64,000 nt of DNA, taken from positions 1 to 64,000 of IMG/VR virus record IMGVR_UViG_3300036770_005084. One strand, written 5' to 3'. The notes under the pieces are model-generated. The model worked only from the letters and a program-made list of their open reading frames with translations. It ran no database searches and had not been told where the DNA came from. The number at the start of each line of letters is the position of its first letter. Position 1 is the stretch's first letter. Shown here piece by piece: positions 1,046-11,529 of the stretch. Origin of the DNA: a virus. The position numbers and the translations under genes are program-made.

Positions 1046-1054
1046 TGCTATGAT
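1046..1054 (+). promoter_or_regulatory. Extended -10 promoter (TGCTATGAT)
   Basis: TGC precedes TATGAT at 1049-1054, the extended -10 arrangement recognised by sigma-70 without a good -35. No -35 is evident. It would start transcription about 20 bases before the gene at 1079. The same TGCTAT core recurs at 3238, 5628, 6934 and 8065. Confidence 0.55.
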
Positions 1055-1078
1055 GGATTCATCAATCAAAGAGGAGGT

Positions 1079-1204
1079 ATGACTACCCCAAATTGGCAAC
1101 ACAATTCAGGAAAAGATAAGAACACAAAAGGTGCTTGTAAGGGGAAACTCAAATCAAGAAAGCAAGCACTTCAACACATCAAACGCAAACTCAAAGTAAT
1201 CTGA
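1079..1204 (+). CDS. Small basic protein, 41 aa
   Basis: ATG follows a strong ribosome binding site, GAGGAGG at 1071-1077. The 41-aa product is lysine- and arginine-rich (repeated K, R and H in the last 22 residues) with one tryptophan near the N-terminus. A nucleic-acid-binding role would fit its charge but is only inference. Its TGA overlaps the ATG of the next gene (ATGA), implying translational coupling. I do not recognise a family. Confidence 0.6.
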   Translation: MTTPNWQHNSGKDKNTKGACKGKLKSRKQALQHIKRKLKVI

Positions 1205-1377
1205 TGACCTATCAAAATCTTCTGGAGATTCTTCAGACTCTGACTCTGGAGCAGTTGAAGATGGATGTTTCAATTTATGATATTGGCACTGATGAGTTTT
1301 ATTCAATGAATAGTTTTCATTTTACAGATGAAACTGTAGATGTCCTTGACCCTGAGCACCCTTACATTTCCTTTTGA
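1204..1377 (+). CDS. Conserved small cyanophage protein, 57 aa
   Basis: It begins MTYQNLLEILQTLTLEQL and ends DVLDPEHPYISF. From memory, similar short proteins with a helical N-terminal half and a terminal D-VLD-x-x-HPY segment occur in T4-like cyanophages. No function is known. It overlaps the upstream gene by one base and is followed two bases later by the next ATG, so 1079-1869 reads as one tightly packed operon. Confidence 0.7.
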   Translation: MTYQNLLEILQTLTLEQLKMDVSIYDIGTDEFYSMNSFHFTDETVDVLDPEHPYISF

Positions 1378-1379
1378 TA

Positions 1380-1541
1380 ATGAAAGAAGTTACGATCACT
1401 GTTAAACTCCTTCTTGAGGATGACCAACCCTCTTGCGATTGGGTTTATGAAAGTATCTACCAGCAACTGAATCATGATGCTGGAGAAGCAATCCTTGAGT
1501 ATTCTGATGATGAACCGGCGTTAATAAGATGGACTGACTGA
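1380..1541 (+). CDS. Hypothetical acidic protein, 53 aa
   Basis: This is an acidic 53-aa product whose N-terminus MKEVTITVKLLLEDD looks like a beta strand, followed by a helical stretch with YESIYQQL. It is spaced tightly between neighbours (2 and 3 bases). The gene at 5398 has a similar plan: 54 aa, an N-terminal strand and an acidic C-terminus. No function can be assigned. Confidence 0.6.
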   Translation: MKEVTITVKLLLEDDQPSCDWVYESIYQQLNHDAGEAILEYSDDEPALIRWTD

Positions 1542-1544
1542 CTA

Positions 1545-1682
1545 ATGAACTCTAAAACAATTACTTACGTTTTTCTTGCATTTATTGCTATCCTTGGTTG
1601 GAACGCATTTCTTATTCAACGTGATAATAAAATGTTTGAACGATATCATAATACAACAATAACAAGAACAATAAATGTCTAA
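1545..1682 (+). CDS. Single-pass membrane mini-protein, 45 aa
   Basis: Residues 5-25 (TITYVFLAFIAILGWNAFLIQ) form one hydrophobic segment, preceded by a short polar N-terminus with one lysine and followed by a charged, polar tail. It overlaps the next gene by 8 bases. It could be an early host-takeover membrane protein, but this is inference from topology alone. Confidence 0.55.
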   Translation: MNSKTITYVFLAFIAILGWNAFLIQRDNKMFERYHNTTITRTINV

Positions 1683-1869
1683 CGATCTATTTTCGGAAGG
1701 TATTGAAGTTTACTATAAACAGCAATATGGAATAATTAGATTCGTATCTAAAGAGTATATTACTGTTTGTGTTCGCAATTTCCCTAAAGAACGAGTTAAA
1801 GATGTTTGTATTGTAGTTCACCCAGAAAATTACAAGTATATTGAATTGATTAAGGAATCTACAAAATGA
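1675..1869 (+). CDS. Conserved hypothetical protein, 64 aa
   Basis: This 64-aa protein alternates short beta-like segments (EVYYKQQYGIIRFVS, YITVCVRNF, VCIVVHP), suggesting a small beta-barrel or SH3-like fold. It ends the first short operon. The recurrent hairpin at 1876 follows seven bases after its stop. Its function is unknown. Confidence 0.65.
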   Translation: MSNDLFSEGIEVYYKQQYGIIRFVSKEYITVCVRNFPKERVKDVCIVVHPENYKYIELIKESTK

Positions 1870-1875
1870 TGCCGA

Positions 1876-1899
1876 TGTGCCACCTGTAGTACTGGCACA
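1876..1899 (+). repeat. Recurrent intergenic hairpin, copy with 7-bp stem
   Basis: TGTGCCA (1876-1882) pairs with TGGCACA (1893-1899) around a 10-base loop. It sits directly after the stop of the gene at 1675 and ahead of a promoter-like TACAAT. It lacks a U-tract, so it is more likely an RNA end-protection or processing element, or a weak terminator, than a classical terminator. Confidence 0.75.
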
Positions 1900-1929
1900 C
1901 TAAACCTCCCACAGACCCCCCTGATGCCC

Positions 1930-1935
1930 TACAAT
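1930..1935 (+). promoter_or_regulatory. Possible -10 element (TACAAT)
   Basis: TACAAT lies 25 bases before the ATG at 1960, in the place where the other hairpin modules carry TGCTATAAT. It lacks the TG extension and has no visible -35. Position in the repeated module is the main argument. Confidence 0.35.
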
Positions 1936-1959
1936 ACGGGAACACAAGCAAAGGACACC

Positions 1960-2202
1960 ATGACGGTTCTTGATGTTTTTCACTACACTACTTCTCGTTG
2001 GGATTGGCACGATGGTAATGTAAATCAGATGTGGATTCAAGAGATTGAGCACTCTCCTGATTACTACAGTTATGTTGCTGTTGCTTACAATCCTCGTACA
2101 GATGCAAGTATGGTAATGTCCGAACCACGTTGCTATGCTGATACTTTGAACTGGGTTCGTAAGTTCTGCGGTTCTTTCAGTATTCTTCCTCAATACTGCT
2201 GA
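1960..2202 (+). CDS. Hypothetical protein, 80 aa
   Basis: The start is placed at ATG 1960 because AAGGA precedes it, and because an upstream in-frame ATG at 1924 would lie before the likely transcription start. The product MTVLDVFHYTTSRWDWHDG... is rich in tryptophan, tyrosine and cysteine (WDW, CYAD, FCGS, QYC), which is unusual for so small a protein. I do not recognise the family. Confidence 0.65.
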   Translation: MTVLDVFHYTTSRWDWHDGNVNQMWIQEIEHSPDYYSYVAVAYNPRTDASMVMSEPRCYADTLNWVRKFCGSFSILPQYC

Positions 2203-2238
2203 TTCATACTTAACTCAATCAATTCTCACTTCTTCATT

Positions 2239-2619
2239 ATGACTATTAAGTTTCCTCGTCTGTCTGCTGGTATCTACGAGATTCAAAAGGATTCTAACAC
2301 AGTTGGATTCATTCGTAAAGTCAATGCAACCAAGTGGATGGTTGTTGATGTTGTAGATACTCCTCAGCATGTATCTAAGACACTCAAAGATGCAAAATAT
2401 GCTGTAGAGAACTTCATCATTTTTGATGTAGTTGACAACACTCAAGAAACTGAGTATAATGAGTCTGTCCAAGATGAAAAGATTGATAATACTCTTAATA
2501 AGACTCTAGAGGGTTCTTTGCACTGCTATAAGCAGATTCCTGGAACTGATGAGTTTGAAGAAGTATGTCCTAGCACTCTTGGATTTTCTGTTCCTACTCT
2601 TGAACCCATTGAGTTCTGA
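2239..2619 (+). CDS. Hypothetical two-part protein, 126 aa
   Basis: The N-terminal 65 residues look like a compact alpha/beta unit (GIYEIQKDSNTVGFI, KWMVVDVVDTP, SKTLKDAKYAVENFI). The rest is acidic and polar, ending in a proline-containing tail. The N-terminal part resembles a small-protein fold seen in other phage early proteins, but I cannot name it. The stop overlaps the next ATG by one base. Confidence 0.7.
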   Translation: MTIKFPRLSAGIYEIQKDSNTVGFIRKVNATKWMVVDVVDTPQHVSKTLKDAKYAVENFIIFDVVDNTQETEYNESVQDEKIDNTLNKTLEGSLHCYKQIPGTDEFEEVCPSTLGFSVPTLEPIEF

Positions 2620-2795
2620 TGTTTAAGTTTATTCTCAACACAATTCTCCAACAAAACAAAATGCACAATTCAACTCTAGATCTTTTCTGTGATCATGAAG
2701 ATGAAACTATTGCAGATGAATATGCAATGGAAATTGAACGTAAAGCAGCAGAACTAGAAGTGACTGTTGATTATTACATGATGGAGTTTGTTTGA
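2619..2795 (+). CDS. Hypothetical protein, 58 aa
   Basis: The 58-aa product starts MFKFILNTILQQNK and continues as an acidic helix (DHEDETIADEYAMEIERKAAELE). It overlaps both neighbours by one base (TGATG junctions), so it is translationally coupled. It was found by reading the sequence between the two larger genes. Its function is unknown. Confidence 0.6.
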   Translation: MFKFILNTILQQNKMHNSTLDLFCDHEDETIADEYAMEIERKAAELEVTVDYYMMEFV

Positions 2796-3091
2796 TGGAC
2801 ACTTGGGATTGTACTGTTACGATGCCATCAGGTAAGATTAGATCTATCAATGTAACTGCTTATTGTTATAGTGATGCAATTATTACTGCTGAATCTATGA
2901 CTGGTGGAATATGTAATAATGCAGTCCAAATGTATAATTCAACTACAAATAATGAAACAAGTGGAGATAATAGTGGTTTAGGAATACTATTTCTTCTTGT
3001 AGTTGTATTTTGTATTGCTGCATGGAAATATATTCTTCTCATTAGTGGAATTGCATTTGTTATGTGGTGGTTATGGAAGAATTGGAACTAA
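2795..3091 (+). CDS. Membrane protein with two C-terminal TM segments, 98 aa
   Basis: The start is ATG 2795, coupled to the upstream stop. A soluble N-terminal half (about residues 1-57) resembles a small beta domain (WDCTVTMPSGKIRSINV). It is followed by two adjacent hydrophobic segments at about 60-77 and 80-93, and a WKNWN end. The topology suggests a helical hairpin in the inner membrane with the N-terminal domain on one face. The family and function are not recognised. Confidence 0.65.
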   Translation: MDTWDCTVTMPSGKIRSINVTAYCYSDAIITAESMTGGICNNAVQMYNSTTNNETSGDNSGLGILFLLVVVFCIAAWKYILLISGIAFVMWWLWKNWN

Positions 3092-3100
3092 ATAGAATAT

Positions 3101-3174
3101 GCCTGTGTAGCTCAGTTGGATAGAGCAACGGTTTTGTAAACCGTAGGTCGTCGGTTCAAGTCCGACCGTGGGCT
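3101..3174 (+). tRNA. tRNA-Thr (anticodon TGT)
   Basis: Acceptor arm 3101-3107 pairs with 3167-3173, using several G-U pairs. D-arm AGCTCAGTTGGATAGAGC is typical. The anticodon stem ACGGT/ACCGT encloses loop TTTGTAA with anticodon TGT. The T-arm is GTCGGTTCAAGTCCGAC. No CCA is encoded. It reads ACA, common in the AT-rich structural genes. It starts 9 bases after the stop of the membrane-protein gene. Confidence 0.92.
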
Positions 3175-3188
3175 TATAATTTATAATA

Positions 3189-3211
3189 TGTGCCACTTGT
3201 AGCACTGTCCA
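3189..3211 (+). repeat. Recurrent intergenic element, degenerate hairpin copy
   Basis: TGTGCCACTTGTAGCACTGTCC shares its 5' half with the 4504 copy, but the 3' arm is altered (TGTCC for TGGCAC), leaving only GTGC/GCAC as a stem. A second small hairpin, GCACC-TTGTA-GGTGC (3226-3240), abuts the promoter. Confidence 0.6.
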
Positions 3212-3237
3212 TATCATTCCCATTTGCACCTTGTAGG

Positions 3238-3246
3238 TGCTATAAT
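3238..3246 (+). promoter_or_regulatory. Extended -10 promoter (TGCTATAAT) for the helicase gene
   Basis: TGC plus a perfect TATAAT at 3241-3246, 23 bases before the helicase ATG. No convincing -35 is seen 16-18 bases upstream, so it would rely on the extended -10. Confidence 0.65.
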
Positions 3247-3269
3247 AGTTCTATTGATTTGATTGATTG

Positions 3270-4505
3270 ATGCTGACTCTTCTTCCTTATCAACAACGTG
3301 CTCTTAAGGCAGTTCAAAATGCTATCAGGGGTAGTGTTTATATTCCCACTGGTGGTGGCAAAACTATTGTGATGATGGAAGATGCACGTCAACGGATTCT
3401 AAATGCACTAGAACCGATGACGTTTCTTGTTGTTGCTCCTCGTATTCTGCTTGCAAATCAACTCTGTTCAGAGTTCGAAGAATATCTCAAAGACCAGAAT
3501 GTTGCTTATCTGCACGTTCACAGTGGAGAAACTCATCATCAATCCTCTACACGTCCATCAGTCATTGCAGAATACAATGACACTGCAATCGGAAGTGGTA
3601 AGCATCAGTTTATCTTCACCACATACAATTCGATAGGTCGTGTGAATGAGGCAGATATTAACATTGATGTTGTGTATTTCGATGAAGCACATCACTGTGT
3701 GAAACCATCTAACTTTGTGGGTATTGCTCATACTTCAGCAGTTGCAGATAATGCTTATTTCTTCACTGCAACTCCGAAGTTTAATAACAGCAAGGAGTCA
3801 ATGAATAATACTGATGTGTATGGTAATAACATCATCAGTATTCCTGCAAAAGAACTCATTGAAGCAGGTAGTATCATTCCTCCCAAAGTTGTTCCTTATG
3901 AAGCACAAACCATTCGCACTAAAGAAAATGCACCTTTTGTAGATGCAGAGAACATTGTAGGTATTCTGTCAGAGATTTCTGATTGTGATGCTCCTAAAGT
4001 TCTTGTTGCTGCTCCTAGCACCAAAGTAATCTGGGCAATGTTTACTGAGAGTGATTTGCTGCAACAACTCAATGATATGGGTTATACGATTATGCACATC
4101 ACTTCAAAGCACGGTGCTTATATTGACAAACAGAAAGTCTCCCGTGAAGTATTCTTCCAGAAGATGAGTGAGTTTGGTGCTGATGCAGACAAGAAGTTCA
4201 TTGTATTTCATTATAGCATCCTGTCTGAAGGAATGAATGTTCATGGTCTGACTCATTGCATTATGCTTCGCAATCTTCCTCTGATTGAAATGGCACAGAC
4301 TGTTGGACGTGTTATCCGTATGCACCGTGATGATCGACAAGCAATCGCAGAGGGTAAAGTAAAAGCAGGTGAGTTTGCTTTCTATAAGAAACCCTTTGGC
4401 ACTATCACTATTCCTGTCAACAACAACTATGGTGATAAGATTGCTCGTCAACTTCAAACTGTTGTGGACACTATCTTTGTGAAGGGTGAGGTTCTTTCTG
4501 CCTAG
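3270..4505 (+). CDS. Superfamily 2 DEAH-type helicase/ATPase
   Basis: The start is ATG 3270; a TTG one codon earlier is less likely. The 411-aa protein has SF2 motifs in order: Walker A PTGGGKT (26-32), VVAPRILLANQL (Ia), DEAH (138-141), TAT (166-168) and motif VI QTVGRVIRMHR (343-353). The layout resembles the RAD25/UvsW-like group, but the separate gene at 51174 is the true UvsW counterpart. This is a second, smaller helicase within the early region, where it could remodel DNA or RNA early in infection. It forms its own transcription unit between two hairpin modules. Confidence 0.88.
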   Translation: MLTLLPYQQRALKAVQNAIRGSVYIPTGGGKTIVMMEDARQRILNALEPMTFLVVAPRILLANQLCSEFEEYLKDQNVAYLHVHSGETHHQSSTRPSVIAEYNDTAIGSGKHQFIFTTYNSIGRVNEADINIDVVYFDEAHHCVKPSNFVGIAHTSAVADNAYFFTATPKFNNSKESMNNTDVYGNNIISIPAKELIEAGSIIPPKVVPYEAQTIRTKENAPFVDAENIVGILSEISDCDAPKVLVAAPSTKVIWAMFTESDLLQQLNDMGYTIMHITSKHGAYIDKQKVSREVFFQKMSEFGADADKKFIVFHYSILSEGMNVHGLTHCIMLRNLPLIEMAQTVGRVIRMHRDDRQAIAEGKVKAGEFAFYKKPFGTITIPVNNNYGDKIARQLQTVVDTIFVKGEVLSA

Positions 4506-4527
4506 TGCCACTTGTAGCACTGGCACT
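4504..4527 (+). repeat. Recurrent intergenic hairpin, 7-bp stem
   Basis: AGTGCCA (4504-4510) pairs with TGGCACT (4521-4527), with loop CTTGTAGCAC. It overlaps the stop codon of the helicase gene. It is followed by a C4/G4 hairpin (4531-4548) and a promoter. Confidence 0.75.
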
Positions 4528-4534
4528 ATACCCC

Positions 4535-4563
4535 TTGCGGTGCAGGGGATTTCCTGGTATTAT
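4535..4563 (+). promoter_or_regulatory. Sigma-70-like promoter (TTGCGG-17-TATTAT)
   Basis: TTGCGG (4535-4540), a 17-base spacer and TATTAT (4558-4563), with TGG forming an extended -10. The -35 lies inside the C4/G4 hairpin. It would start transcription about 17 bases before the gene at 4587. Confidence 0.6.
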
Positions 4564-4586
4564 ACTTGTATGGATGAAGAACTCCA

Positions 4587-4751
4587 ATGACCTACACACC
4601 GATTGAGTCAAGTATTCCTTACTTGAAGGTTCCCGAAAACCGATTGAATCTTGCATTTAATTGGTATAATCGGCATGAAGATCATCCTTTGAACTTCCCC
4701 TGTTATTCTTATTGGATTCAACATTGTGAAAATGATGGCACTGACTACTGA
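4587..4751 (+). CDS. Hypothetical protein, 54 aa
   Basis: The 54-aa product (MTYTPIESSIPYLKVPENRLN...) is rich in aromatic residues: FNWYNRH, YSYWIQH. It overlaps the following gene by 17 bases in another frame. No family is recognised. Confidence 0.5.
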   Translation: MTYTPIESSIPYLKVPENRLNLAFNWYNRHEDHPLNFPCYSYWIQHCENDGTDY

Positions 4752-4932
4752 AACTATGCTTGACACTGTTTTGTCTATTGAAGAAGTTTTGACCGAGAAG
4801 CAACTGCTTGCTTTGCGAGACATTATGTACTTCTACAAAGAATTTGAAATGGAGTTGTACAATTATCCTCAAGAAGATACACTGTTTACTAAAACTCAAC
4901 GAGAACTATTCGACATTTTCGACATCAAATGA
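4735..4932 (+). CDS. Hypothetical helical protein, 65 aa
   Basis: The start is set at ATG 4735; ATG 4732 and GTG 4726 are alternatives in frame. The product is predicted mostly helical (MLDTVLSIEEVLTEKQLLAL) and acidic, ending in RELFDIFDIK. It overlaps the next gene by four bases (ATGA). Confidence 0.6.
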   Translation: MALTTETMLDTVLSIEEVLTEKQLLALRDIMYFYKEFEMELYNYPQEDTLFTKTQRELFDIFDIK

Positions 4933-5138
4933 CTTCAATTTCTTTCACTTCTGGTGAGTTGCTTGATATTATGAAAGCACTTGAGTATTATGAAGATGAT
5001 GCTTACTTCAATCAAAATAATGCACATCTTGCTAGTTATTATCTGAGTATGCAAAATCAATTTCAACTCATTTATGAAAAGTTGCAAGAATTACCTGGAG
5101 AGGATAGAGTTGCTAATCTTGTTCTTGCTGCAAACTAA
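4929..5138 (+). CDS. Hypothetical helical protein, 69 aa
   Basis: This acidic, helix-rich 69-aa protein has a conserved-looking core (SGELLDIMKALEYYEDDAYF) and a second helix LIYEKLQEL. It is coupled by one-base or four-base overlaps to both neighbours, as part of the operon 4587-5562. No function can be assigned. Confidence 0.6.
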   Translation: MTSISFTSGELLDIMKALEYYEDDAYFNQNNAHLASYYLSMQNQFQLIYEKLQELPGEDRVANLVLAAN

Positions 5139-5320
5139 TGAAACCTAAGTTCCGTGCCGTATTAGAATTGGCAATCGAGGAAGGTGTAAGGTATGGATAC
5201 CAACGTGCATTTAAGCACAATCCAGAACCTCACATTGATTCGATAACTGATACTATTGTAACCGAAATTTTTAACTCACTCGACACTTGGTTTGATGATG
5301 TCAACTGCACTGAAGAGTAA
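5138..5320 (+). CDS. Conserved small phage protein, 60 aa
   Basis: MKPKFRAVLELAIEEGVRYGYQ... then an acidic tail. From memory, short proteins with the same EGVRYGYQRAFKH-type core are common in T4-like cyanophages, with no assigned function. The ATG overlaps the upstream stop by one base. Confidence 0.65.
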   Translation: MKPKFRAVLELAIEEGVRYGYQRAFKHNPEPHIDSITDTIVTEIFNSLDTWFDDVNCTEE

Positions 5321-5321
5321 A

Positions 5322-5398
5322 ATGAATAGATTGCAGATTTGAACGATTCAGGTTATACTTTCAATGAACTTTCTAATTTGATCGAACAACAATTTTAA
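5322..5398 (+). pseudogene. Possible frameshifted mini-gene
   Basis: ATG 5322 opens a frame that stops after six codons (MNRLQI). A second frame starting at TTG 5339 continues 19 codons, including NELSNLIEQQF, to a TAA that overlaps the next ATG. The two parts would join by a one-base shift near 5338, suggesting a small gene broken by an indel. Chance is not excluded. Confidence 0.25.
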
Positions 5399-5562
5399 TG
5401 GAACAACAAACTGTGACTCAATACAAGTCTGTAAATCTTACTGTATATTTCAATGCCGAATTGGATGATGGTGAGGTACAAGATTTCATTGATCGTATGA
5501 CTGAAAAATATAGTCATCCTGATGACATTATTCGAGATTATGAATACTGGTATGATGAGTGA
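5398..5562 (+). CDS. Hypothetical acidic protein, 54 aa
   Basis: The N-terminal strand (YKSVNLTVYFNAELDD) is followed by a helix and an acidic C-terminus (IIRDYEYWYDE). The plan is similar to that of the 53-aa protein at 1380. It is the last gene before the hairpin at 5577. Confidence 0.6.
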   Translation: MEQQTVTQYKSVNLTVYFNAELDDGEVQDFIDRMTEKYSHPDDIIRDYEYWYDE

Positions 5563-5576
5563 GTCTAGTGTGAGAC

Positions 5577-5600
5577 TGTGCCACCTGTAGGAGTGGCACA
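5577..5600 (+). repeat. Recurrent intergenic hairpin, perfect 8-bp stem
   Basis: TGTGCCAC (5577-5584) pairs perfectly with GTGGCACA (5593-5600) around loop CTGTAGGA. It is one of the two best-preserved copies of the repeated element. It separates the 4587-5562 operon from the ArdA-like gene. Confidence 0.8.
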
Positions 5601-5627
5601 ATACACTCCCCAAACCCCCTGTGTGGG

Positions 5628-5636
5628 TGCTATAAT
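5628..5636 (+). promoter_or_regulatory. Extended -10 promoter (TGCTATAAT)
   Basis: TGC plus TATAAT (5631-5636), 28 bases before the ATG at 5665. No -35 is visible at the expected distance. It is identical in core to the promoter at 3238. Confidence 0.65.
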
Positions 5637-5664
5637 TACGAAGTAATCAAGGTTGAGAGACCAA

Positions 5665-6060
5665 ATGACTGCAACTCAAGTTGAACTTCAAGAATCCACT
5701 ATCAATTTCATCAAAGAACTTGTAGAAGATTCTTATGCTCAAGATGACATTTATGATTTCATTGCTGAGTATGGTGAGAGCACCTTTGTTCAACATTATG
5801 TAACTTATGTTGAACTGGGTGAATCTTATTCTTACGATGCAGTAGATTGCTTTATCGAAGAATTTGGTGTTAATGATCTTGACTCATTCGAAGATTCTTA
5901 CCGTGGGGAATGGAGTTCTGCTGCAGATTATGCAGCAAACTATGTCACAGATTGTTATTCTGTAGATATTCCTGATTTTGTTGAGATTGACTGGAGGGAA
6001 ACTTTCAACAATCTTGGACGTGTTTATGTCAATGGTTTTGTTTTTGATTCTCAATACTGA
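5665..6060 (+). CDS. ArdA-like antirestriction protein (putative)
   Basis: The start is ATG 5665. The 131-aa protein is strongly acidic with few basic residues. Its second half carries a series typical of ArdA proteins: FEDSYRGEWSSAADYAANYV, then IPDFVEIDW and a C-terminal YVNGFVFDS. ArdA dimers mimic B-form DNA and block type I restriction enzymes and related methylases. The N-terminal half (QESTINFIKELVEDSY...) also fits an alpha/beta acidic domain. It is the first gene after a strong early-type promoter, as expected for a defence inhibitor. The assignment rests on motif likeness seen by eye. Length is somewhat below that of plasmid ArdA (about 165 aa). Confidence 0.6.
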   Translation: MTATQVELQESTINFIKELVEDSYAQDDIYDFIAEYGESTFVQHYVTYVELGESYSYDAVDCFIEEFGVNDLDSFEDSYRGEWSSAADYAANYVTDCYSVDIPDFVEIDWRETFNNLGRVYVNGFVFDSQY

Positions 6061-6212
6061 TGAAACTTCACTTCAACGACAATCAAATCAAATTGATTCT
6101 CTATTGCTTGGAACAACAAGCATATGAGTTTAATGATGATGAGAAGGAGGATTACAATGCTATCCTTCATTCTATCGAGATTGCACACGATTCAACTAAC
6201 TACGATTTCTGA
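6060..6212 (+). CDS. Hypothetical protein, 50 aa
   Basis: The 50-aa product has an N-terminal KLHFNDNQIKLILYCLEQQ followed by an acidic helical part. Similar short modules starting with a helix of this type occur in phage early proteins. It is coupled to both neighbours by TGATG overlaps. Confidence 0.6.
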   Translation: MKLHFNDNQIKLILYCLEQQAYEFNDDEKEDYNAILHSIEIAHDSTNYDF

Positions 6213-6457
6213 TGCGACTTCAATCTAAAGATGGCAACATGGTGGTAGATTTCTATCCCATCAGAACTCCAATGGGTGATGTATCCAAAGAGTGGTATCT
6301 AAAGATTCTCACTTTTATGGGTGAAACTCAATCTAAGAAATTCATCAAAAAAGATGATATGAATCTTGAGATTGAAGATTATAATAATTCTCACAACTAT
6401 GAAGTTGTAAAGTTCAATACTATTCCACAACTTGCTAATCCTTTTGCTACTGTCTGA
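6212..6457 (+). CDS. Hypothetical protein, 81 aa
   Basis: An 81-aa protein of mixed strands (GNMVVDFYPIRTPMGDVS, WYLKILTFMG) with a lysine/aspartate middle. It is the third gene of the ArdA operon. No family is recognised. Confidence 0.6.
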   Translation: MRLQSKDGNMVVDFYPIRTPMGDVSKEWYLKILTFMGETQSKKFIKKDDMNLEIEDYNNSHNYEVVKFNTIPQLANPFATV

Positions 6458-6459
6458 TC

Positions 6460-6666
6460 ATGCTACTTCAACTTACCGACATTGAATTTGATTTTGTTGA
6501 TTCTGAGGGAGAACTTCCTTATGATGAACAGGTTGCAGTTTCTAACTCTGTGATTGGGGAAGTCTTTGATGTTGATGATGAGGATGAACTTGCAGATGTA
6601 ATCACTGATGAAACTGGGTGGTGTATTAAATCACTCAATTACATTGAAATTGTTGAATCTAACTGA
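6460..6666 (+). CDS. Hypothetical very acidic protein, 68 aa
   Basis: The 68 residues include a run VFDVDDEDELADVITDE and only one lysine, giving a strongly negative charge. In this operon, alongside an ArdA-like protein, a DNA-mimic or inhibitor role is possible but unproven. Confidence 0.6.
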   Translation: MLLQLTDIEFDFVDSEGELPYDEQVAVSNSVIGEVFDVDDEDELADVITDETGWCIKSLNYIEIVESN

Positions 6667-6668
6667 CA

Positions 6669-6851
6669 ATGGAAACTCAAACTCGCAATGAATTGGTTGA
6701 AGCATATGTTGATCGTGTGCTTGATAATATGTCAACCAAAGATTTGATTCGAATTGTAGCAGATCAACTTGAAGAAAATCTATCCGCATATAGTGATGAT
6801 GAACTCATTGCGGAGATTGATGAGTATTATCCAGAATTGCTTGAGACATGA
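6669..6851 (+). CDS. Conserved small acidic phage protein, 60 aa
   Basis: METQTRNELVEAYVDRVLD... with a central helix and a C-terminal DDELIAEIDEYYPELLE. From memory, this kind of short helical protein (an NELVEAxVD start and YxPELLE end) is common in T4-like cyanophages and unassigned. It is the last gene before the tandem hairpins. Confidence 0.7.
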   Translation: METQTRNELVEAYVDRVLDNMSTKDLIRIVADQLEENLSAYSDDELIAEIDEYYPELLET

Positions 6852-6859
6852 TCTAACAT

Positions 6860-6886
6860 CATCTCATCGAGTCCAATGATGAGATG
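6860..6886 (+). other. 9-bp stem hairpin abutting the recurrent hairpin
   Basis: CATCTCATC (6860-6868) and GATGAGATG (6878-6886) form a perfect 9-bp stem with a 9-base loop. Its last two bases are also the first two of the next hairpin (6885-6908), so the two helices compete at their junction. This is the only copy of the module preceded by a second strong stem. Confidence 0.7.
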
Positions 6887-6908
6887 TGCCACTTGTTTTT
6901 GTGGCACA
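6885..6908 (+). repeat. Recurrent intergenic hairpin, perfect 8-bp stem
   Basis: TGTGCCAC (6885-6892) pairs with GTGGCACA (6901-6908). The loop TTGTTTTT differs from the CTGTAG-type loops, while the stem is identical to the 5577 copy. Conserved arms with a changed loop point to selection on the stem. Confidence 0.8.
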
Positions 6909-6933
6909 CTAAATGAGCACAGACCCCAAAAGG

Positions 6934-6942
6934 TGCTATATT
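6934..6942 (+). promoter_or_regulatory. Extended -10 promoter (TGCTATATT)
   Basis: TGC plus TATATT (6937-6942), about 55 bases before the ATG at 6998. It follows the hairpin at the same kind of distance as at 5628. There is no clear -35. Confidence 0.55.
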
Positions 6943-6997
6943 AAGAGGGTGGAAGGGGTCAGACCCACCCACAAACGTTCAACTTACTTAAATTACA

Positions 6998-7195
6998 ATG
7001 ACTGTTGCTTTCTCTAAAGATCTGATGATTGGTATGCTCCGCAAGGGTGAGACTGGAAATCAGATTCTTGACATTCTTGATGTGATTGCACCTGACAATA
7101 CTGAACTCACCCGTGAGCAAGTTTGTGAGGATCTTGCGATTGCTGATTGTCCTGAGAACGATGATGAGATTGCTGCTTATCTTGCTGCAGTCTGA
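6998..7195 (+). CDS. Hypothetical protein, 65 aa
   Basis: The 65-aa product starts MTVAFSKDLMIGMLRKGETGNQ and continues ILDILDVI, followed by an acidic C-terminal helix (EIAAYLAAV). Its codon use (CGT, CGC, GCT) is typical of the early region. It heads the third operon (6998-7995). No function is known. Confidence 0.65.
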   Translation: MTVAFSKDLMIGMLRKGETGNQILDILDVIAPDNTELTREQVCEDLAIADCPENDDEIAAYLAAV

Positions 7196-7220
7196 GTTCA
7201 ATTCTTTATTCTTTTTCATC

Positions 7221-7406
7221 ATGTTTATTGCTTGTCCCGTAACATTCATTCTTGAAGATGCGGAATGGTTTGATGATGTTTTTGAAGCAACTGAATCTGC
7301 ACTTGATTGGAGTGCGGAACTATCTGGTGAGAATGTGATTGTTTATGAGGCAATCGAAGGTAACTATGGTTACGACTTCAAACCACTTTCTACAATTTCT
7401 GCCTGA
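7221..7406 (+). CDS. Hypothetical acidic protein, 61 aa
   Basis: The start is ATG 7221; the longer frame upstream overlaps the previous gene and is unlikely to be translated. The product (FILEDAEWFDDVFEATESAL...) is very acidic with a single lysine (FKPLS near the C-terminus). The family is unknown. Confidence 0.6.
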   Translation: MFIACPVTFILEDAEWFDDVFEATESALDWSAELSGENVIVYEAIEGNYGYDFKPLSTISA

Positions 7407-7414
7407 TTCTACTA

Positions 7415-7744
7415 ATGAACGCACAACTTTCGATTGATAAATGTAAAGTAATGTGGGTTGTTGGTGCATTGCAACGACTTGCGACTTTAGGTATGATTGG
7501 TCCTGACATTCCACTACAACTTACTCCAGAGGCAGTGGAAGATTATATTGAGATTGATAATCATCGAGATATTCTTTTTCAGTCAGACTTTGAGATTGCA
7601 TCTATCTTCACACAAATTGTAAAATGTGAATGTGATGATGAACCAAGTTCTGATGATATTAAAGGTATTGTAAATTTAATTCTTGAGTATAAGAACAATC
7701 GCACTGAGATTGTTAAGTTTGCTCTTTCACACCAAGTTATTTGA
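7415..7744 (+). CDS. Hypothetical protein, 109 aa
   Basis: A 109-aa mixed alpha/beta protein starting MNAQLSIDKCKVMWVVGAL, with several acidic stretches (ECDDEPSSDDIKGIV). Its stop overlaps the region just before the next ATG. No domain is recognised. Confidence 0.65.
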   Translation: MNAQLSIDKCKVMWVVGALQRLATLGMIGPDIPLQLTPEAVEDYIEIDNHRDILFQSDFEIASIFTQIVKCECDDEPSSDDIKGIVNLILEYKNNRTEIVKFALSHQVI

Positions 7745-7746
7745 TA

Positions 7747-7995
7747 ATGTTTAATCAACTTGAATTTCAACAACACGGTCTTAAAGATTGTGTACATGCA
7801 AAGTATCAGTTCTCAAATGATTGGAGTATTTCTATTGTTTCCGGACCTGCTGGTTGTGGATTATATGGGAATCTAGAAGATGAGACATATGAAGTTGCAA
7901 TCTACCGACCGAATGGAAATATGACTGAAGATGTGATTGGATGGAATACTAAACAGGAAGTGTCTGCGATGATGAGAGTACTGTCTCAACTCTAG
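7747..7995 (+). CDS. Hypothetical protein, 82 aa
   Basis: The start is ATG 7747; a TTG two codons earlier is possible. It looks like an all-beta protein: KYQFSNDWSISIVSGPAG, then EDETYEVAIYRPNG, then a C-terminal helix. The pattern of strands followed by glycine turns is common in small phage effectors, but I recognise no family. Confidence 0.65.
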   Translation: MFNQLEFQQHGLKDCVHAKYQFSNDWSISIVSGPAGCGLYGNLEDETYEVAIYRPNGNMTEDVIGWNTKQEVSAMMRVLSQL

Positions 7996-7997
7996 TC

Positions 7998-8020
7998 CAG
8001 CATACCGATAAGGGATGCTG
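7998..8020 (+). other. Intergenic hairpin (CAGCAT/ATGCTG)
   Basis: CAGCAT (7998-8003) pairs with ATGCTG (8015-8020) around an 11-base loop, just after the stop of the 82-aa gene. It differs in sequence from the GTGCCAC hairpins but holds the same position, before a promoter. Confidence 0.5.
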
Positions 8021-8044
8021 ATAGGTAGAAGAACCGTAAACCCC

Positions 8045-8073
8045 TTGACAACCATCCAGATCCGTGCTATGAT
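8045..8073 (+). promoter_or_regulatory. Strong sigma-70-like promoter (TTGACA-17-TATGAT)
   Basis: A perfect -35 TTGACA (8045-8050), a 17-base spacer and TATGAT (8068-8073) preceded by TGC, giving both a consensus -35 and an extended -10. It is among the strongest promoter matches in the early region and drives the small genes from about 8098 onward. Confidence 0.8.
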
Positions 8074-8097
8074 GAACGAAGTTCAGAGGATGAGACC

Positions 8098-8271
8098 TTG
8101 ACCACTGCTCAACGAATGGAAAAACAATTTTTCATCAATTTCATTCAACTTATCAATGAGGTTCAAGGTAAGACTAAACTTCCTTCGCAGATTGTTAAGA
8201 ATCGCAAGTCTGCTTGGGTTAAGCAAGTTGTAAATCCCAAGCAAAAGAAAGATGCACTTTCTCTTGTGTAG
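8098..8271 (+). CDS. Small basic protein, 51-57 aa
   Basis: Two starts are possible: TTG 8098, which has an AGAGG ribosome site at a proper distance, or ATG 8116 without one. The C-terminal half is basic (IVKNRKSAWVKQVVNPKQKKDAL), and an N-terminal helix FFINFIQLINEVQGK precedes it. It may bind nucleic acid, which is inference from charge. It is the first gene of the 8045 promoter. Confidence 0.55.
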   Translation: MTTAQRMEKQFFINFIQLINEVQGKTKLPSQIVKNRKSAWVKQVVNPKQKKDALSLV

Positions 8272-8293
8272 TTCTTTTCTTCCTTCCTTTTTC
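8271..8293 (+). repeat. Pyrimidine-rich leader repeat, copy 1
   Basis: GTTCTTTTCTTCCTTCCTTTTTC lies between two small genes and recurs at 8494-8517 with one extra T. Both copies precede a start codon by 17-25 bases. They contain no Shine-Dalgarno sequence. Confidence 0.7.
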
Positions 8294-8307
8294 TTTTTCT
8301 TCAATCA

Positions 8308-8493
8308 ATGATGAAACTCACCAAGGCACAAAAAGAAATTCTTCTCACTCTTGAGAATGGTGATGTTGTGAATAACTGGTCTCAACGTATGCGAGCAATT
8401 CAACCACTGATTGATGCTGGTATTGTTTATATCAAGGTGACGAATGATAAGAATGGTATTACAGAAGATGTAAGAGTTGCACTGGTTGATTAA
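8308..8493 (+). CDS. Hypothetical protein, winged-helix-like, 61 aa
   Basis: The frame opens with two ATG codons. KLTKAQKEILLTLENGDVV... continues with a helix (RMRAIQPLIDAG) and ends with a beta hairpin (IVYIKVTNDKNGI). The order of helices then hairpin resembles a small winged-helix fold, which suggests DNA binding but is not diagnostic. It lies between the two pyrimidine-rich leaders. Confidence 0.6.
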   Translation: MMKLTKAQKEILLTLENGDVVNNWSQRMRAIQPLIDAGIVYIKVTNDKNGITEDVRVALVD

Positions 8494-8517
8494 GTTCTTT
8501 TTCTTCCTTCCTTTTTC
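8494..8517 (+). repeat. Pyrimidine-rich leader repeat, copy 2
   Basis: GTTCTTTTTCTTCCTTCCTTTTTC matches the 8271 copy apart from one added T. It follows the stop of the 61-aa gene and precedes the ATG at 8540. Confidence 0.7.
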
Positions 8518-8539
8518 ACTAAACCAAGAGTTCTTTCTT

Positions 8540-8743
8540 ATGACTATCGACCAACTGATTTCGATTCTCAATCGTGCCAAAGAATCTGCCGGTGGTGATA
8601 CTGAAGTTCAGATTTGCTCTAGTGATTATTGCTTCGCAGATTCTTCCAATGTTGTCAATGTTGTGATTCAAGATTGTAAATCTTTGATGAGTGATGAAGA
8701 TGGAAATACTACACTTTATCTTGTTAAACCTTATGGTTCTTGA
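8540..8743 (+). CDS. Hypothetical protein, 67 aa
   Basis: The start is ATG 8540; the frame upstream runs through the pyrimidine leader and is not translated. The N-terminal helix (TIDQLISILNRAKES) is followed by strands (DTEVQICSSDYC, NVVNVVIQDC, TTLYLVKPYG). The plan of a helix then strands, with a D-x-EV turn, recurs in small phage proteins of unknown role. Confidence 0.65.
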   Translation: MTIDQLISILNRAKESAGGDTEVQICSSDYCFADSSNVVNVVIQDCKSLMSDEDGNTTLYLVKPYGS

Positions 8744-8779
8744 TTAAGTTCTTTCATCTGTCCCACATAAAAACAAGCA

Positions 8780-8941
8780 ATGCTGATTAAAACTGTTTTC
8801 GACGTTCATACTCATCAACCTGTGTATGCTATTTGTAATGCACAACATCAATGTGGTATGATTACGACTAACATTCTCAATGCTATTAAAGCAGCACAAT
8901 GTAAAGACTTCAATCAAGTTCAAACTTTAATCAATTCCTGA
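8780..8941 (+). CDS. Hypothetical protein, 53 aa
   Basis: MLIKTVFDVHTHQPVYAI... with three cysteines and several histidines (AQHQCGM), then a helix (AIKAAQCKDFNQVQTLI). Cysteine and histidine spacing does not make a clear zinc motif. The stop overlaps the next ATG. Confidence 0.55.
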   Translation: MLIKTVFDVHTHQPVYAICNAQHQCGMITTNILNAIKAAQCKDFNQVQTLINS

Positions 8942-9024
8942 TGAAACTCAAAACTAAAATCAATCTATTGTCTAAAGCAATTAACGGTAAAGAACTACTC
9001 ATTATTCTGAATTCAATCAAATGA
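8941..9024 (+). CDS. Possible micro-protein, 27 aa
   Basis: An ATG coupled to the upstream TGA opens 27 codons (MKLKTKINLLSKAINGKELL...) and its stop overlaps the next ATG by four bases. The position fits the packed gene arrangement, but the length gives little support. Confidence 0.35.
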   Translation: MKLKTKINLLSKAINGKELLIILNSIK

Positions 9025-9230
9025 CAAACAAAGTGTTTCAAATTGAATTGTGTAAAGAGGATGCACAAAGAATACTTGATGCACTTGAATTACTCCAATG
9101 TCAGACTAAACAACAGATTGATGATTGTAAGAGTGAAGAACAACAAACCATTGCCTGGTTAGAATGGTCTTATGTAAGTGAATTACATTATGATTTGGAT
9201 TGTAAGTTTAGATTAGAGACCTGGAATTGA
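9021..9230 (+). CDS. Hypothetical coiled protein, 69 aa
   Basis: A helical, charged protein: FQIELCKEDAQRILDALEL, then QTKQQIDDCKSEEQQTIAWL. It is the last gene before the 850-base non-coding region, with its stop five bases before the first DnaA-box-like 9-mer. Confidence 0.65.
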   Translation: MTNKVFQIELCKEDAQRILDALELLQCQTKQQIDDCKSEEQQTIAWLEWSYVSELHYDLDCKFRLETWN

Positions 9231-9235
9231 ATAGT

Positions 9236-9257
9236 TTTCCACAAGGTTGCGGAAAAT
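9236..9257. other. Single DnaA-box-like 9-mer with inverted arm
   Basis: TTTTCCACA at 9236-9244, and GGAAAA at 9252-9257 complementary to its first six bases. It lies 240 bases before the main cluster. Confidence 0.5.
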
Positions 9258-9329
9258 TGTTTTGATTTCATGACTTAGTAAAATGTTAATAATTATTATG
9301 ATGTGAGATATATGTCGTTTATAATGATA

Positions 9330-9353
9330 CCCCTATATCGTCCATTTCAGGGT
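9330..9353 (+). repeat. 24-bp direct repeat, copy 1
   Basis: CCCCTATATCGTCCATTTCAGGGT matches 9569-9592 exactly. The ends (CCCT/AGGG) are self-complementary, so each copy could form a small hairpin. The two copies bracket the DnaA-box cluster. Confidence 0.85.
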
Positions 9354-9483
9354 GTTTATATTGATGGTATTGTACGGTATTGTTTGATATCTGTGATTGT
9401 TCTTTTAATGTCTCTAGTTCTCGTGATCTTGGCCCACAGTTTATCACAAACTCTGAGATCTGTCAAGTGTCACTGTGCCAGTA

Positions 9484-9540
9484 GTTTTCCACAGGTTTTT
9501 CCACAATTTCCACAGGTTTTTCCACAACCCTGTGGAAAAC
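9484..9540. other. Cluster of five DnaA-box-like sites (putative origin element)
   Basis: TTTTCCACA occurs at 9485, 9497 and 9518, ATTTCCACA at 9506, and the inverted TGTGGAAAA at 9531. The block has an internal 21-bp period (two helical turns). Its outer 12 bases, 9484-9495 and 9529-9540, are perfect inverted repeats. TTTTCCACA is the DnaA-box form known from cyanobacterial origins; E. coli uses TTATCCACA. Host DnaA could bind here. Confidence 0.65.
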
Positions 9541-9568
9541 TGTAAATAATTCGATGTTTATTTTGACC

Positions 9569-9592
9569 CCCCTATATCGTCCATTTCAGGGT
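9569..9592 (+). repeat. 24-bp direct repeat, copy 2
   Basis: Identical to 9330-9353, 239 bases away. It begins 30 bases after the last DnaA-box-like site. Confidence 0.85.
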
Positions 9593-9748
9593 TATGAAAT
9601 ACAACTGCACTTCGTGTGTCGTTATCAATCACCTGAAAGGTGTCTAGAATGACCTGTAATCGTCTTTGTTCGTGTAACAGGTAGTCTGAGACCTACGTTA
9701 TATTTTCGTGCTCTCCTCGTGGTTTTTAATGCCCTGGGTATTGCTGGG

Positions 9749-9777
9749 TTGACAGAATAGGGCACTTGATGTACAAT
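9749..9777 (+). promoter_or_regulatory. Strong promoter in non-coding region (TTGACA-17-TACAAT)
   Basis: Perfect -35 TTGACA (9749-9754), a 17-base spacer and TACAAT (9772-9777). No gene starts within the next 280 bases, so the product would be a non-coding RNA or a long leader for the gene near 10079. Confidence 0.65.
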
Positions 9778-9781
9778 TAGA

Positions 9782-9802
9782 ATACAGTACGAGTTACTGT
9801 AT
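9782..9802. promoter_or_regulatory. Palindromic operator-like site at the predicted start site
   Basis: ATACAGTA (9782-9789) and TACTGTAT (9795-9802) are perfect 8-base inverted repeats with a 5-base centre. They begin about 5 bases after the -10 of the promoter at 9749 and so cover the transcription start. This fits a repressor operator or a 5' stem-loop of the RNA. Confidence 0.55.
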
Positions 9803-9840
9803 GTCACTATGGTCACAGTTCGTGTTATTATCTTCGTGTC

Positions 9841-9870
9841 CTGACAGTTATCAATTCGTGCCATTATAAT
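9841..9870 (+). promoter_or_regulatory. Second promoter-like sequence (CTGACA-18-TATAAT)
   Basis: CTGACA (9841-9846) and a perfect TATAAT (9865-9870), spaced 18. It is also upstream of non-coding DNA. Confidence 0.45.
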
Positions 9871-10008
9871 TGTTATTAGTAATACAAACTGACAGTGTAT
9901 TCGTTATACTTTGACAGTTTGTGATAATTTATAGGTATATTTTCGTGTTCGTGGAGCACAGTTATATCGGGGGTTGTTTAATTATAATACCGGGTAATGC
10001 GGTTATAA

Positions 10009-10019
10009 GGGGGGGGGGG
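10009..10019 (+). repeat. 11-base G homopolymer
   Basis: An uninterrupted run of 11 G in otherwise AT-rich DNA, 60 bases before the possible ATG at 10079. It could be a G-quadruplex former, a slippage site or an assembly artefact. Confidence 0.85.
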
Positions 10020-10078
10020 TTTTATAATTTTCGAAAGTCCTAACCTACAAAACTTTGAAAACGAGAAAGTTATTTCAA

Positions 10079-10246
10079 ATGCTAAAAAAAATTTTTTGGA
10101 GTAAAAAAAATCCTGTGAGGTTTTTGTATAATCATGTGTATGGGACAGAAACGAGTCCTTGGGATGAGATTCATTATATTGGGATTGTATTGGGAGAGAC
10201 AGTGAAGATTATTGGGAGTCACTATATAAAAAAATTTCGGATATAA
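10079..10246 (+). CDS. Hypothetical basic protein, 55 aa
   Basis: ATG 10079 opens 55 codons; a TTG at 10055 would extend it by eight. The N-terminus is basic (LKKIFWSKKNPVRFL) and is followed by a mixed segment ending IIGSHYIKKFRI. No good ribosome site is visible, so translation is uncertain. It is the first candidate gene after the gene-free region. Confidence 0.45.
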   Translation: MLKKIFWSKKNPVRFLYNHVYGTETSPWDEIHYIGIVLGETVKIIGSHYIKKFRI

Positions 10247-10249
10247 AAA

Positions 10250-10411
10250 ATGGTATATAAGTTAATTGCAAGGGAACGAGTATTTTGTGAGGGTAGTTTA
10301 GATGAGTGTCAAAAGACTCTCACAGAGATAACTCAGATGATAAGTGCAGGATTAACGACTGATTTTCAGGTCGAAGAATTTTTAATCCTCAACTTGACTG
10401 GGAATAAATAA
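10250..10411 (+). CDS. Hypothetical protein, 53 aa
   Basis: MVYKLIARERVFCEGSLDE... then a helix (CQKTLTEITQMISAG) and a short acidic C-terminus. Its pattern (a strand containing xxCEG, a helix, then a strand) is the same as in the 60-aa protein at 11198 (YQILCEGRIIYKNLSQDEM), so the two may be distant paralogues flanking the glycosyltransferase gene. Confidence 0.55.
   Translation: MVYKLIARERVFCEGSLDECQKTLTEITQMISAGLTTDFQVEEFLILNLTGNK
10403..10410 (+). promoter_or_regulatory. Late-promoter-like octamer (AATAAATA)
   Basis: GAATAAATA at 10402-10410 lies 52 bases before the glycosyltransferase ATG. It matches the T4 late consensus TATAAATA at seven of eight bases, like the 50167 site. It overlaps a stop codon, so it may be coincidental. 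Confidence 0.35.
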
Positions 10412-10461
10412 TCGAGTATCATGAAGTGGTACGTATACGTATTTGTTGTTGAATTAATTTT

Positions 10462-11220
10462 ATGGCCAAGAAAGGATTTACAGTTAAGAATACCGTAGAG
10501 AAAGAACCTGATCAGTTATTTGATATTGATGAATGTAAGGAACGTATTAGGGGCAAGACGATTGTATTTTGTCTACCAGGTAGGGGAGTTTCATATCGAT
10601 TCTTAAAATCATTTGTGCAGTTATGTTTTGATCTTGTACAATCTGGTGCTGCGATTCAGATTTCACAAGATTATAGTTCAATGGTAAACTTTGCTCGATG
10701 CAAATGTTTAGGTGCGAATGTACTAAGGGGACCAGATCAATTACCTTGGGATGGTAAACTCAAGTATGATTATCAACTATGGATTGATAGTGATATTGTT
10801 TTTAATACTGAAGCATTTTGGGCATTGTTTGCAATGGATAAGGACATTGCATGTGGATGGTATGCTACTGAGGATGGAAGAACAACATCTGTAGCACATT
10901 GGTTAGATGAGGATGATTTCAAGAGTAATGGTGGAGTGATGAATCATGAGATGGTAGATACCATTACAAATCGTAAGAAACCATTTACTGTAGATTATAC
11001 GGGATTTGGGTGGACTATGATTAAGAATGGAGTATTTGAGCATCCAGAGATGAAGTATCCATGGTTTGCTCCGCAGATGCAAGTCTTTGAATCTGGTGAA
11101 GTACAGGACATGTGTGGAGAAGATGTATCATTCTGTCTCGATGCTACACGTAAGTGTGGATTTGAAATCTGGTGTCATCCTCAAATTCGTGTCGGACATG
11201 AAAAGACAAGAATCATCTGA
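10462..11220 (+). CDS. GT-A type glycosyltransferase
   Basis: The 252-aa protein carries the GT-A D-x-D metal and sugar-nucleotide motif as WIDSD (residues 107-111). A C-terminal GEDVSFCLDATRKCGFEIW...GH (219-245) matches the usual E-D-v-x-F-c...G pattern of the acceptor and catalytic region. Such enzymes transfer sugars from nucleotide donors. In phages they modify DNA bases, phage proteins or host surface glycans, and which applies here is unclear. It stands among small genes between the origin-like region and the baseplate genes. Similar genes are frequent in T4-like cyanophages. Confidence 0.8.
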   Translation: MAKKGFTVKNTVEKEPDQLFDIDECKERIRGKTIVFCLPGRGVSYRFLKSFVQLCFDLVQSGAAIQISQDYSSMVNFARCKCLGANVLRGPDQLPWDGKLKYDYQLWIDSDIVFNTEAFWALFAMDKDIACGWYATEDGRTTSVAHWLDEDDFKSNGGVMNHEMVDTITNRKKPFTVDYTGFGWTMIKNGVFEHPEMKYPWFAPQMQVFESGEVQDMCGEDVSFCLDATRKCGFEIWCHPQIRVGHEKTRII

Positions 11221-11380
11221 TAGTTATCAGATTTTATGTGAAGGTAGGATCATTTATAAGAATCTCTCTCAAGATGAGATGTTTGACGTTATGGATGATC
11301 TTGCCGAACAATTTATAGAGACAGGTCTTCCCAAACCAGAAGACATTATGGTAGAATGTGTAAGTACTAAGGAGATTTAA
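11198..11380 (+). CDS. Hypothetical protein, 60 aa
   Basis: The start is ATG 11198, overlapping the glycosyltransferase by 23 bases. A longer frame upstream would lie entirely inside that gene. The product SYQILCEGRIIYKNLSQDEM... continues with an acidic helix and a proline (GLPKPEDIMVECV). See 10250 for a possible paralogue. No function is known. Confidence 0.55.
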   Translation: MKRQESSDSYQILCEGRIIYKNLSQDEMFDVMDDLAEQFIETGLPKPEDIMVECVSTKEI

Positions 11381-11385
11381 AGATT

Positions 11386-11529
11386 ATGGCAAAACGTCCT
11401 TCCCTATCTGGCAATTTGATTGAGAGTCGTCCTAAGAAAACTCGTCAAGGTCGTTCACAATATACGAAACTATCTGCTTCTTCGAGGAATGGAGCACGTA
11501 AAAAGTATCGGGGACAAGGTAAAGGTTGA
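11386..11529 (+). CDS. Conserved small basic cyanophage protein, 47 aa
   Basis: The very basic 47-aa protein MAKRPSLSGNLIESRPKKT... ends in ARKKYRGQGKG. From memory, near-identical short proteins (MAKRPSL start, KKYRGQG end) are found throughout T4-like cyanophages, unassigned. The charge suggests binding to nucleic acid. It is directly followed by a strong terminator. Confidence 0.8.
   Translation: MAKRPSLSGNLIESRPKKTRQGRSQYTKLSASSRNGARKKYRGQGKG

Follow-up and report, generated by a model that had tools for sequence, protein, structure and literature searches.

An ArdA relative lacking domain 1 heads a hairpin-promoter cassette of small, mostly acidic proteins in a T4-like cyanophage

The closest described relatives of the locus presented here are the ArdA antirestriction proteins (PF07275), such as ORF18 of Tn916 (PDB 2w82) and ArdA of plasmid R64, whose genes are carried by conjugative elements. 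For ORF18 ArdA, residues 62-103 are given as domain 2 in PMC3969726, and mutagenesis placed antimodification in domain 3, and antirestriction in the two domains before it (PMC3906837). A free-standing C-terminal ArdA from bacterial chromosomes, sArdC, has ~1/3 of the size of ArdA and protects phage lambda against type I restriction in E. coli, according to PMC12548430. Among phages, the annotated anti-restriction proteins of the cyanophages S-PM2, S-SZBM1, P-TIM68 and S-TIM54 form part of the family PHROG 36653, to which the protein discussed below also belongs. With regard to gene arrangement, the PeSL promoter-stem-loop cassettes of T4-like phages are reportedly the subject of Arbiol 2010 and Comeau 2014. 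They are likewise cited as reported for T4-like phages in PMC4503421.

The locus compared with these systems lies in the window, i.e. the whole stretch of DNA that was analysed (64,000 nucleotides), which represents bases 1-64000 of a record of 155,231 bases. T4-type proteins encoded in the window include a DNA polymerase, a clamp loader, an SbcC-like nuclease subunit, a head scaffold and a helicase, and the closest named DNA polymerases are those of Synechococcus phages with ~70% identity. Judged from these gene products, the source virus is a T4-like cyanophage. The helicase gene at 3267-4505 (412 aa) matches phrog_16, as does the gene at 51174-52634; the record therefore has two such helicases. 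A run of + strand genes includes two very long ORFs, presumably structural, at 14299-22533 (2744 aa) and 26852-33190 (2112 aa). The ArdA-like cassette sits in a small-gene region in the first 12 kb of the window and has the following features:

5577..5600 (core 5578-5599), + strand: upstream hairpin TGTGCCAC-8 nt-GTGGCACA, located by pattern and RNA fold
5627..5636, + strand: extended -10 GTGCTATAAT, 27 nt past the hairpin (to TGC) and 28 nt before the ATG
5665..6060, + strand: ArdA-like anti-restriction protein, 131 aa, net charge -25; resembles the ArdA C-terminal half, with a non-ArdA, predicted helical N-terminal segment
6060..6212, + strand: acidic protein, 50 aa, net charge -8; its start overlaps the stop of the ArdA-like gene by one base (TGATG)
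6212..6457, + strand: neutral protein, phrog_500, 81 aa, net charge -1
6460..6666, + strand: most acidic protein, phrog_2460, 68 aa, net charge -19
6669..6851, + strand: second most acidic protein, DUF7326 (PF24012) / phrog_1352, 60 aa, net charge -13
6885..6908 (core 6886-6907), + strand: downstream hairpin TGTGCCAC-8 nt-GTGGCACA closing the cassette, located by pattern and RNA fold
6933..6942, + strand: extended -10 of the next cassette, GTGCTATATT, 25 nt past the hairpin (to TGC)

The five genes are tightly packed, with one-base overlaps (TGATG) joining the first three (5665, 6060 and 6212) and spacers of 2 nt between the later ones, and their assignment to a single tight operon (5665-6851) is supported. 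When all mechanically called ORFs of at least 40 aa from the window and the remaining five stretches of the record were ranked by net charge per residue (n=204), the products of 6460 (-0.279), 6669 (-0.217) and 5665 (-0.191) took ranks 1, 2 and 3, followed at rank 9 by that of 6060 (-0.160), while the 6212 product, at -0.012, is neutral. Pooled over the five genes, the charge amounts to -0.169 per residue, and no other run among the 137 formed by five adjacent ORFs on one strand goes as low. When five ORFs were drawn at random 100,000 times, the set was equally acidic in 8 draws if all 112 small ORFs were eligible, and in 337 if the choice was restricted to the 31 small + strand ORFs at window positions 1-12000, whose median is -0.071 per residue. 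Upon random placement, the three most acidic of these 31 ORFs fell within five consecutive genes in 166 of 4495 triples. Hence, the acidic clustering is real, yet it is embedded in a region that is acidic overall. These counts, together with the promoter pattern described below, bear out the initial annotation, which had read the locus as an operon for small acidic proteins that is preceded by an extended -10, headed by a strongly negative 131-aa protein and continued by acidic genes at 6060, 6460 and 6669; the neutral 6212 gene was absent from it. Just upstream of the first hairpin, positions 5398-5562 hold another acidic ORF (54 aa, net charge -10) that is 88-93% identical in four related loci (L024, L025, L039, L040) and has no significant family match in Pfam or PHROG.

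The operon is framed by two copies of a compact module that combines a hairpin with an extended -10. Hairpins with the arms GTGCCAC/GTGGCAC occur exactly twice in the window, once on each side of the operon, and in none of 100 shuffles; the other five stretches of the record, each read apart, contain none. RNA folding gave -17.5 kcal/mol (z -2.0) for positions 5565-5612 and -22.5 kcal/mol (z -3.0) for positions 6856-6925. The stems are followed by TGCTATAAT after 27 nt and by TGCTATATT after 25 nt, respectively, and the pattern GTGCTATAWT is found five times on the two strands of the window, against 0.27 expected. The predicted extended -10 ahead of 5665 was indeed located at 5627-5636; a two-hexamer sigma-70 scan did not list this site, which is without a good -35. 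No T-run follows either stem and terminator-like sites number zero, so that a terminator role of these stems, stable in themselves, is putative. A degenerate half of the module (positions 3190-3246) also precedes the 3267-4505 helicase gene and consists of TGTGCCACTTGTAGCACT, then GTGCTATAAT at 3237.

The same module recurs in relatives. In an alignment of 13 modules, i.e. the two from the window and eleven from relatives that were picked for having the hairpin, the arms TGTGCCA/TGGCACA are kept in 13 of 13, and the next inner C-G pair reads G-C, with both sides changed, in two loci (L046, L043) and is broken in two others (L090, L086). The upstream survey covered 60 ArdA-like loci, namely the window and 59 distinct relatives, after one more had been dropped because its upstream sequence was lacking. 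A hairpin lies within 130 nt upstream in 21 of the 60, and in all 21 of these TGCTANNAT is located 31-50 nt before the start. The remaining 39 loci have no such hairpin in this range, including those of S-PM2, S-SZBM1, P-TIM68 and S-TIM54, which also differ in their gene neighbours; the absence counts against the preferred reading given below. A module of hairpin and extended -10 fits with early expression, as an antirestriction protein needs, and the cassette is probably expressed early.

By analogy, the modules flanking the operon look like PeSL cassettes. As far as the accessible descriptions permit comparison, both systems join an early-type promoter to a stem-loop and repeat this unit between variable cassettes of small accessory genes; here, two such modules flank the operon and 21 of the 60 loci carry one upstream. 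A point of difference is that the stems described here are not followed by a T-run. In the accessible part of the literature on cyanophage DNA mimics, on cyanophage anti-restriction and S-PM2, and on cyanophage PeSL, a description of the cassette was not found.

The relationship of the 5665 protein to ArdA is remote. Pfam ArdA (PF07275) aligns with residues 32-111 at an E-value of 0.0018 and 19.4 bits, which misses the gathering cut-off of 27 bits, whereas PHROG 36653 'anti-restriction protein' (phrog_36653) matches at E 2.9e-22; an NCBIfam search returned nothing. Relatives were found by tblastn (E up to 1) in 22 phage records, among them S-PM2, S-SZBM1, P-TIM68 and S-TIM54, where the gene is annotated as anti-restriction and the identity is 32-39%, and also in Streptomyces phages, in some of which it is annotated as ArdA-like. 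For the family alignment in viral contigs, the best 80 of 261 relatives' loci were retained. Of the 44 proteins aligned for the family, 37 match PF07275 at E up to 1, the lowest value being 2.1e-5, as do 10 of 12 phage or virus records searched whole (E up to 1); the gathering cut-off was reached in none of these 12, and S-SZBM1 and P-TIM68 gave no PF07275 match whatever at E 1. Comparison of the family alignment with R64 ArdA by hhalign yielded a score of 47.6 (E 2.4e-7) over R64 residues 79-166, while R64 ArdA scored no more than 19.7 in any of 100 shuffles and 11.1 when reversed; a second antirestriction protein from this plasmid gave 10.1.

A further line of evidence comes from the AlphaFold2 model of the protein (mean pLDDT 89.7). 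Plain Foldseek against the PDB listed no ArdA (best E 2.1), and phmmer and profile searches of PDB sequences likewise gave no ArdA but only noise. In a second look with VIA-align, however, ArdA 2w82 came out on top with Z 6.3 (rmsd 3.0, 80 residues aligned; next row 4.1), placing residues 50..130 of the model on ArdA residues 75..165. Taken alone, a Z of 6.3 is a middling value; the match gains weight because sequence and fold agree on the same half of the same protein. The acidity that the family shares with ArdA is likewise conserved, with a median of -0.209 per residue across 60 distinct relatives (range -0.147 to -0.299). In agreement with the ArdA-type C-terminal series noted initially, family profiles, profile-sequence comparison and fold comparison thus support the 5665 protein as a remote ArdA relative over its C-terminal half only; of the relation expected from a PF07275 search, this half stood, but its score remained below the Pfam gathering cut-off. 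The ArdA identity itself is largely present already in the public annotation of the relatives. The present analysis adds two points: profile and model both show that domain 1 has been lost, and the cassette is bounded at either end by a conserved hairpin-promoter module. When bacterial and archaeal genomes were scanned with patterns of the ArdA-like family, 73 candidate stretches came up and none was confirmed as a relative; within the limits of these patterns, a cellular source of the family was thus not found.

Common to ArdA and the 5665 protein are therefore the sequence of R64 residues 79-166, the fold of ArdA residues 75..165 and the acidity. Since domain 2 of ORF18 comprises residues 62-103, the shared part corresponds to late domain 2 plus domain 3. 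In contrast, residues 1-50 of the 5665 protein scored 12.4 against R64 ArdA in hhalign, with 50 shuffles reaching up to 19.4, and the model predicts helices at 10-21, 26-36 and 38-54 in this part. Judged from sequence profile and model, ArdA domain 1 is absent and replaced by ~50 unrelated, helical residues. Unlike the ArdA proteins of conjugative elements, this variant is carried by lytic-type T4-like phages. It likewise resembles sArdC, as described, in retaining just the C-terminal, dimer-interface half, while it differs in its size of 131 aa and in its additional N-terminal segment.

What this architecture means for function can be approached from two sides. Set against the domain assignment available from PMC3906837, the absence of domain 1 speaks against an easy transfer of function to the 5665 protein, whereas the protection conferred by sArdC offers a precedent for a C-terminal ArdA acting on its own. 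From the homology to the ArdA C-terminal half, the conserved acidity and the anatomy of operon and module, we infer inhibition of a host type I enzyme as the likeliest function, for which dimerisation, a DNA-like charge layout, a type I target and early timing would be expected. The corresponding reading, to which we assign a probability of about 0.68, is that of a truncated and rebuilt ArdA-type DNA mimic, encoded by the first gene of an early cassette and putatively blocking a host type I enzyme. In this scenario, host RNA polymerase would transcribe the cassette soon after infection from the hairpin and extended -10. The protein would have retained late domain 2 and also domain 3, which forms the dimer interface and faces the methyltransferase core, with helices substituting for domain 1. 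The acidic protein would then fill the DNA-binding groove of a host type I restriction-modification enzyme, and incoming phage DNA would be spared by the blocked enzyme. Its four small companions would be cargo of the same cassette, and roles in host takeover or anti-defence are guesses for these. As to phage-borne DNA methylation as an alternative means of protection, PF00145 and PF01555 had no match at E 0.01 in the record, which may be incomplete.

Alternatively, the 5665 protein may be an ArdA-derived DNA mimic with a target other than restriction, for example RNA polymerase, a repressor, a nucleoid protein or another defence. The replacement of domain 1 lends some credit to this idea, as the target may have changed with it, and ArdA is reported to be able to regulate gene expression in E. 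coli in a 2026 paper (PMC13300388). Nevertheless, anti-restriction is the name that both PHROG and GenBank give to the relatives, even if such names rest on similarity, and a non-restriction target is considered unlikely.

The companion genes raise a different question. The 6212 product belongs to phrog_500 (E 1.8e-14), the 6460 product to phrog_2460 (E 4.2e-14) and the 6669 product to PF24012 (DUF7326; E 3.9e-17) and phrog_1352 (E 4e-20), all of which are uncharacterised families, and a literature search on DUF7326 found no papers. The exception is the 50-aa protein from 6060, which did not significantly match any family in Pfam, PHROG or NCBIfam. The suggestion that the smaller proteins are possibly undescribed hence holds for their function, but not for the families, as three of the four are catalogued. 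Relatives occur in 82 (6212), 48 (6460) and 43 (6669) phage records compared to 22 for the ArdA-like gene, so that many phages have these companions without a detected ArdA relative. Near ArdA-like genes, they were found in 62 (6212), 59 (6460), 34 (6669) and 8 (6060) of 87 partly redundant loci. In 37 of the 87, the 6212 relative comes directly after the ArdA-like gene and lies within 380-570 nt of the start of the latter; in 17 it is then followed by 6460, and in 11 by 6669 as well (order ardA-6212-6460-6669); in distant relatives, companion genes are located upstream of the ArdA-like gene or far off.

For the 6460 product, AlphaFold2 predicts a beta-alpha-beta-alpha-beta arrangement (pLDDT 93). 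Against the PDB, this product gave no sequence match, and its fold matches did not exceed Z 4.0; a BFVD search (E up to 0.001) gave four matches, namely three uncharacterised cyanophage proteins and one nameless entry. The top rows of the fold search suggested a likeness to a phycobilisome core-linker (LC7.8), which, at Z of no more than 4.0 and E above 1, was put down to chance similarity between small alpha-beta folds. The Ung inhibitor p56 also appeared, with Z values of 2.9, 2.6 and 2.3 in a list where unrelated proteins reach 4.0, and this likeness is probably due to chance as well. As a weak sign of a possible ArdA origin, the 6460 product scored 17.0 with R64 ArdA in hhalign, the best of 50 shuffles reaching 15.7, over 18 columns at 2% probability. 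For the 6212 product, a CRISPR ring-nuclease match (E 0.026, 14.2 bits vs. a cut-off of 125) was dismissed as noise.

The surroundings of the modules in relatives inform on how such cassettes are composed. Between successive hairpins, an ArdA-like gene is present in 26 of 130 distinct cassettes, in 20 of which it is the first called gene. A whole-module scan of viral contigs, whose pattern was derived from the window's own modules and is hence biased towards them, was analysed for 80 of 98 stretches and gave 87 modules, 81 with a first ORF, of which 59 are distinct. The commonest first gene behind the module is ArdA-like (18 of 59), followed among others by a very acidic family of ~47 aa with -0.268 per residue (8 of 59) and by 6460 relatives (3 of 59). 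A further family of ~156 aa that starts with a 'VFDLDATL' stretch stands first behind the module in 13 of the 59.

Could the whole operon then encode acidic DNA mimics or an anti-defence set, with the 6060, 6460 and 6669 products hitting other host DNA-binding proteins? Besides the ranks 1, 2 and 9 of 6460, 6669 and 6060 in acidity, this idea can draw on conserved charge in the 6460 and 6669 families (medians -0.236 and -0.210), in each of which ten D/E positions are kept in at least 80% of the rows. In addition, genes at -0.15 per residue or lower are more frequent beside an ArdA-like gene (46% of 95) than in other cassettes (19% of 298), a comparison that is descriptive since the cassette rows are related. 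Yet the 6212 product is neutral, the companions outnumber the ArdA-like gene in phage records, the order ardA-6212-6460-6669 is found in merely 11 of 87 loci, and none of the known mimics with a solved structure emerges as related to the 6460 model, as p56 with Z up to 2.9 falls within noise and a PDB sequence match is lacking. This reading is rather improbable, and just as doubtful is its more specific form, a compact and shuffled early anti-defence operon of cyanophages in which half an ArdA with its substitute N-terminal segment is combined with two or three acidic micro-proteins (68, 60 and 50 aa) as novel DNA-mimic inhibitors directed at other DNA-binding defences of the host. With three companions in uncharacterised families, one of the four neutral, and families that are commoner than the ArdA-like gene, the initially proposed set of DNA mimics or anti-defence proteins is a conjecture of low probability.

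A reasonably likely account of the companions is that they are ordinary accessory early proteins of a generally acidic region, which are shuffled between cassettes and have unrelated functions. The cassette content varies among relatives, basic proteins are also among the first genes behind the same module, and within the first 12 kb the small ORFs on the + strand are acidic as a group, with their median of -0.071. Set against this, 6460 and 6669, like their families, are much more acidic than the median for the region, and just 337 of the 100,000 sets drawn there at random match the acidity of the operon.

Returning to the preferred reading of the 5665 protein as an ArdA-type inhibitor of a host type I enzyme, several implications emerge. 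The conserved hairpin-promoter module provides a search key for such cassettes in phage genomes, and the ArdA-like gene (18 of 59) and the 47-aa acidic family (8 of 59) are ready candidates for anti-defence screens. If the proposed function holds, T4-like cyanophages would rely for early antirestriction on an ArdA that lacks domain 1, and would thus offer a natural test of the claim that a partial ArdA suffices.
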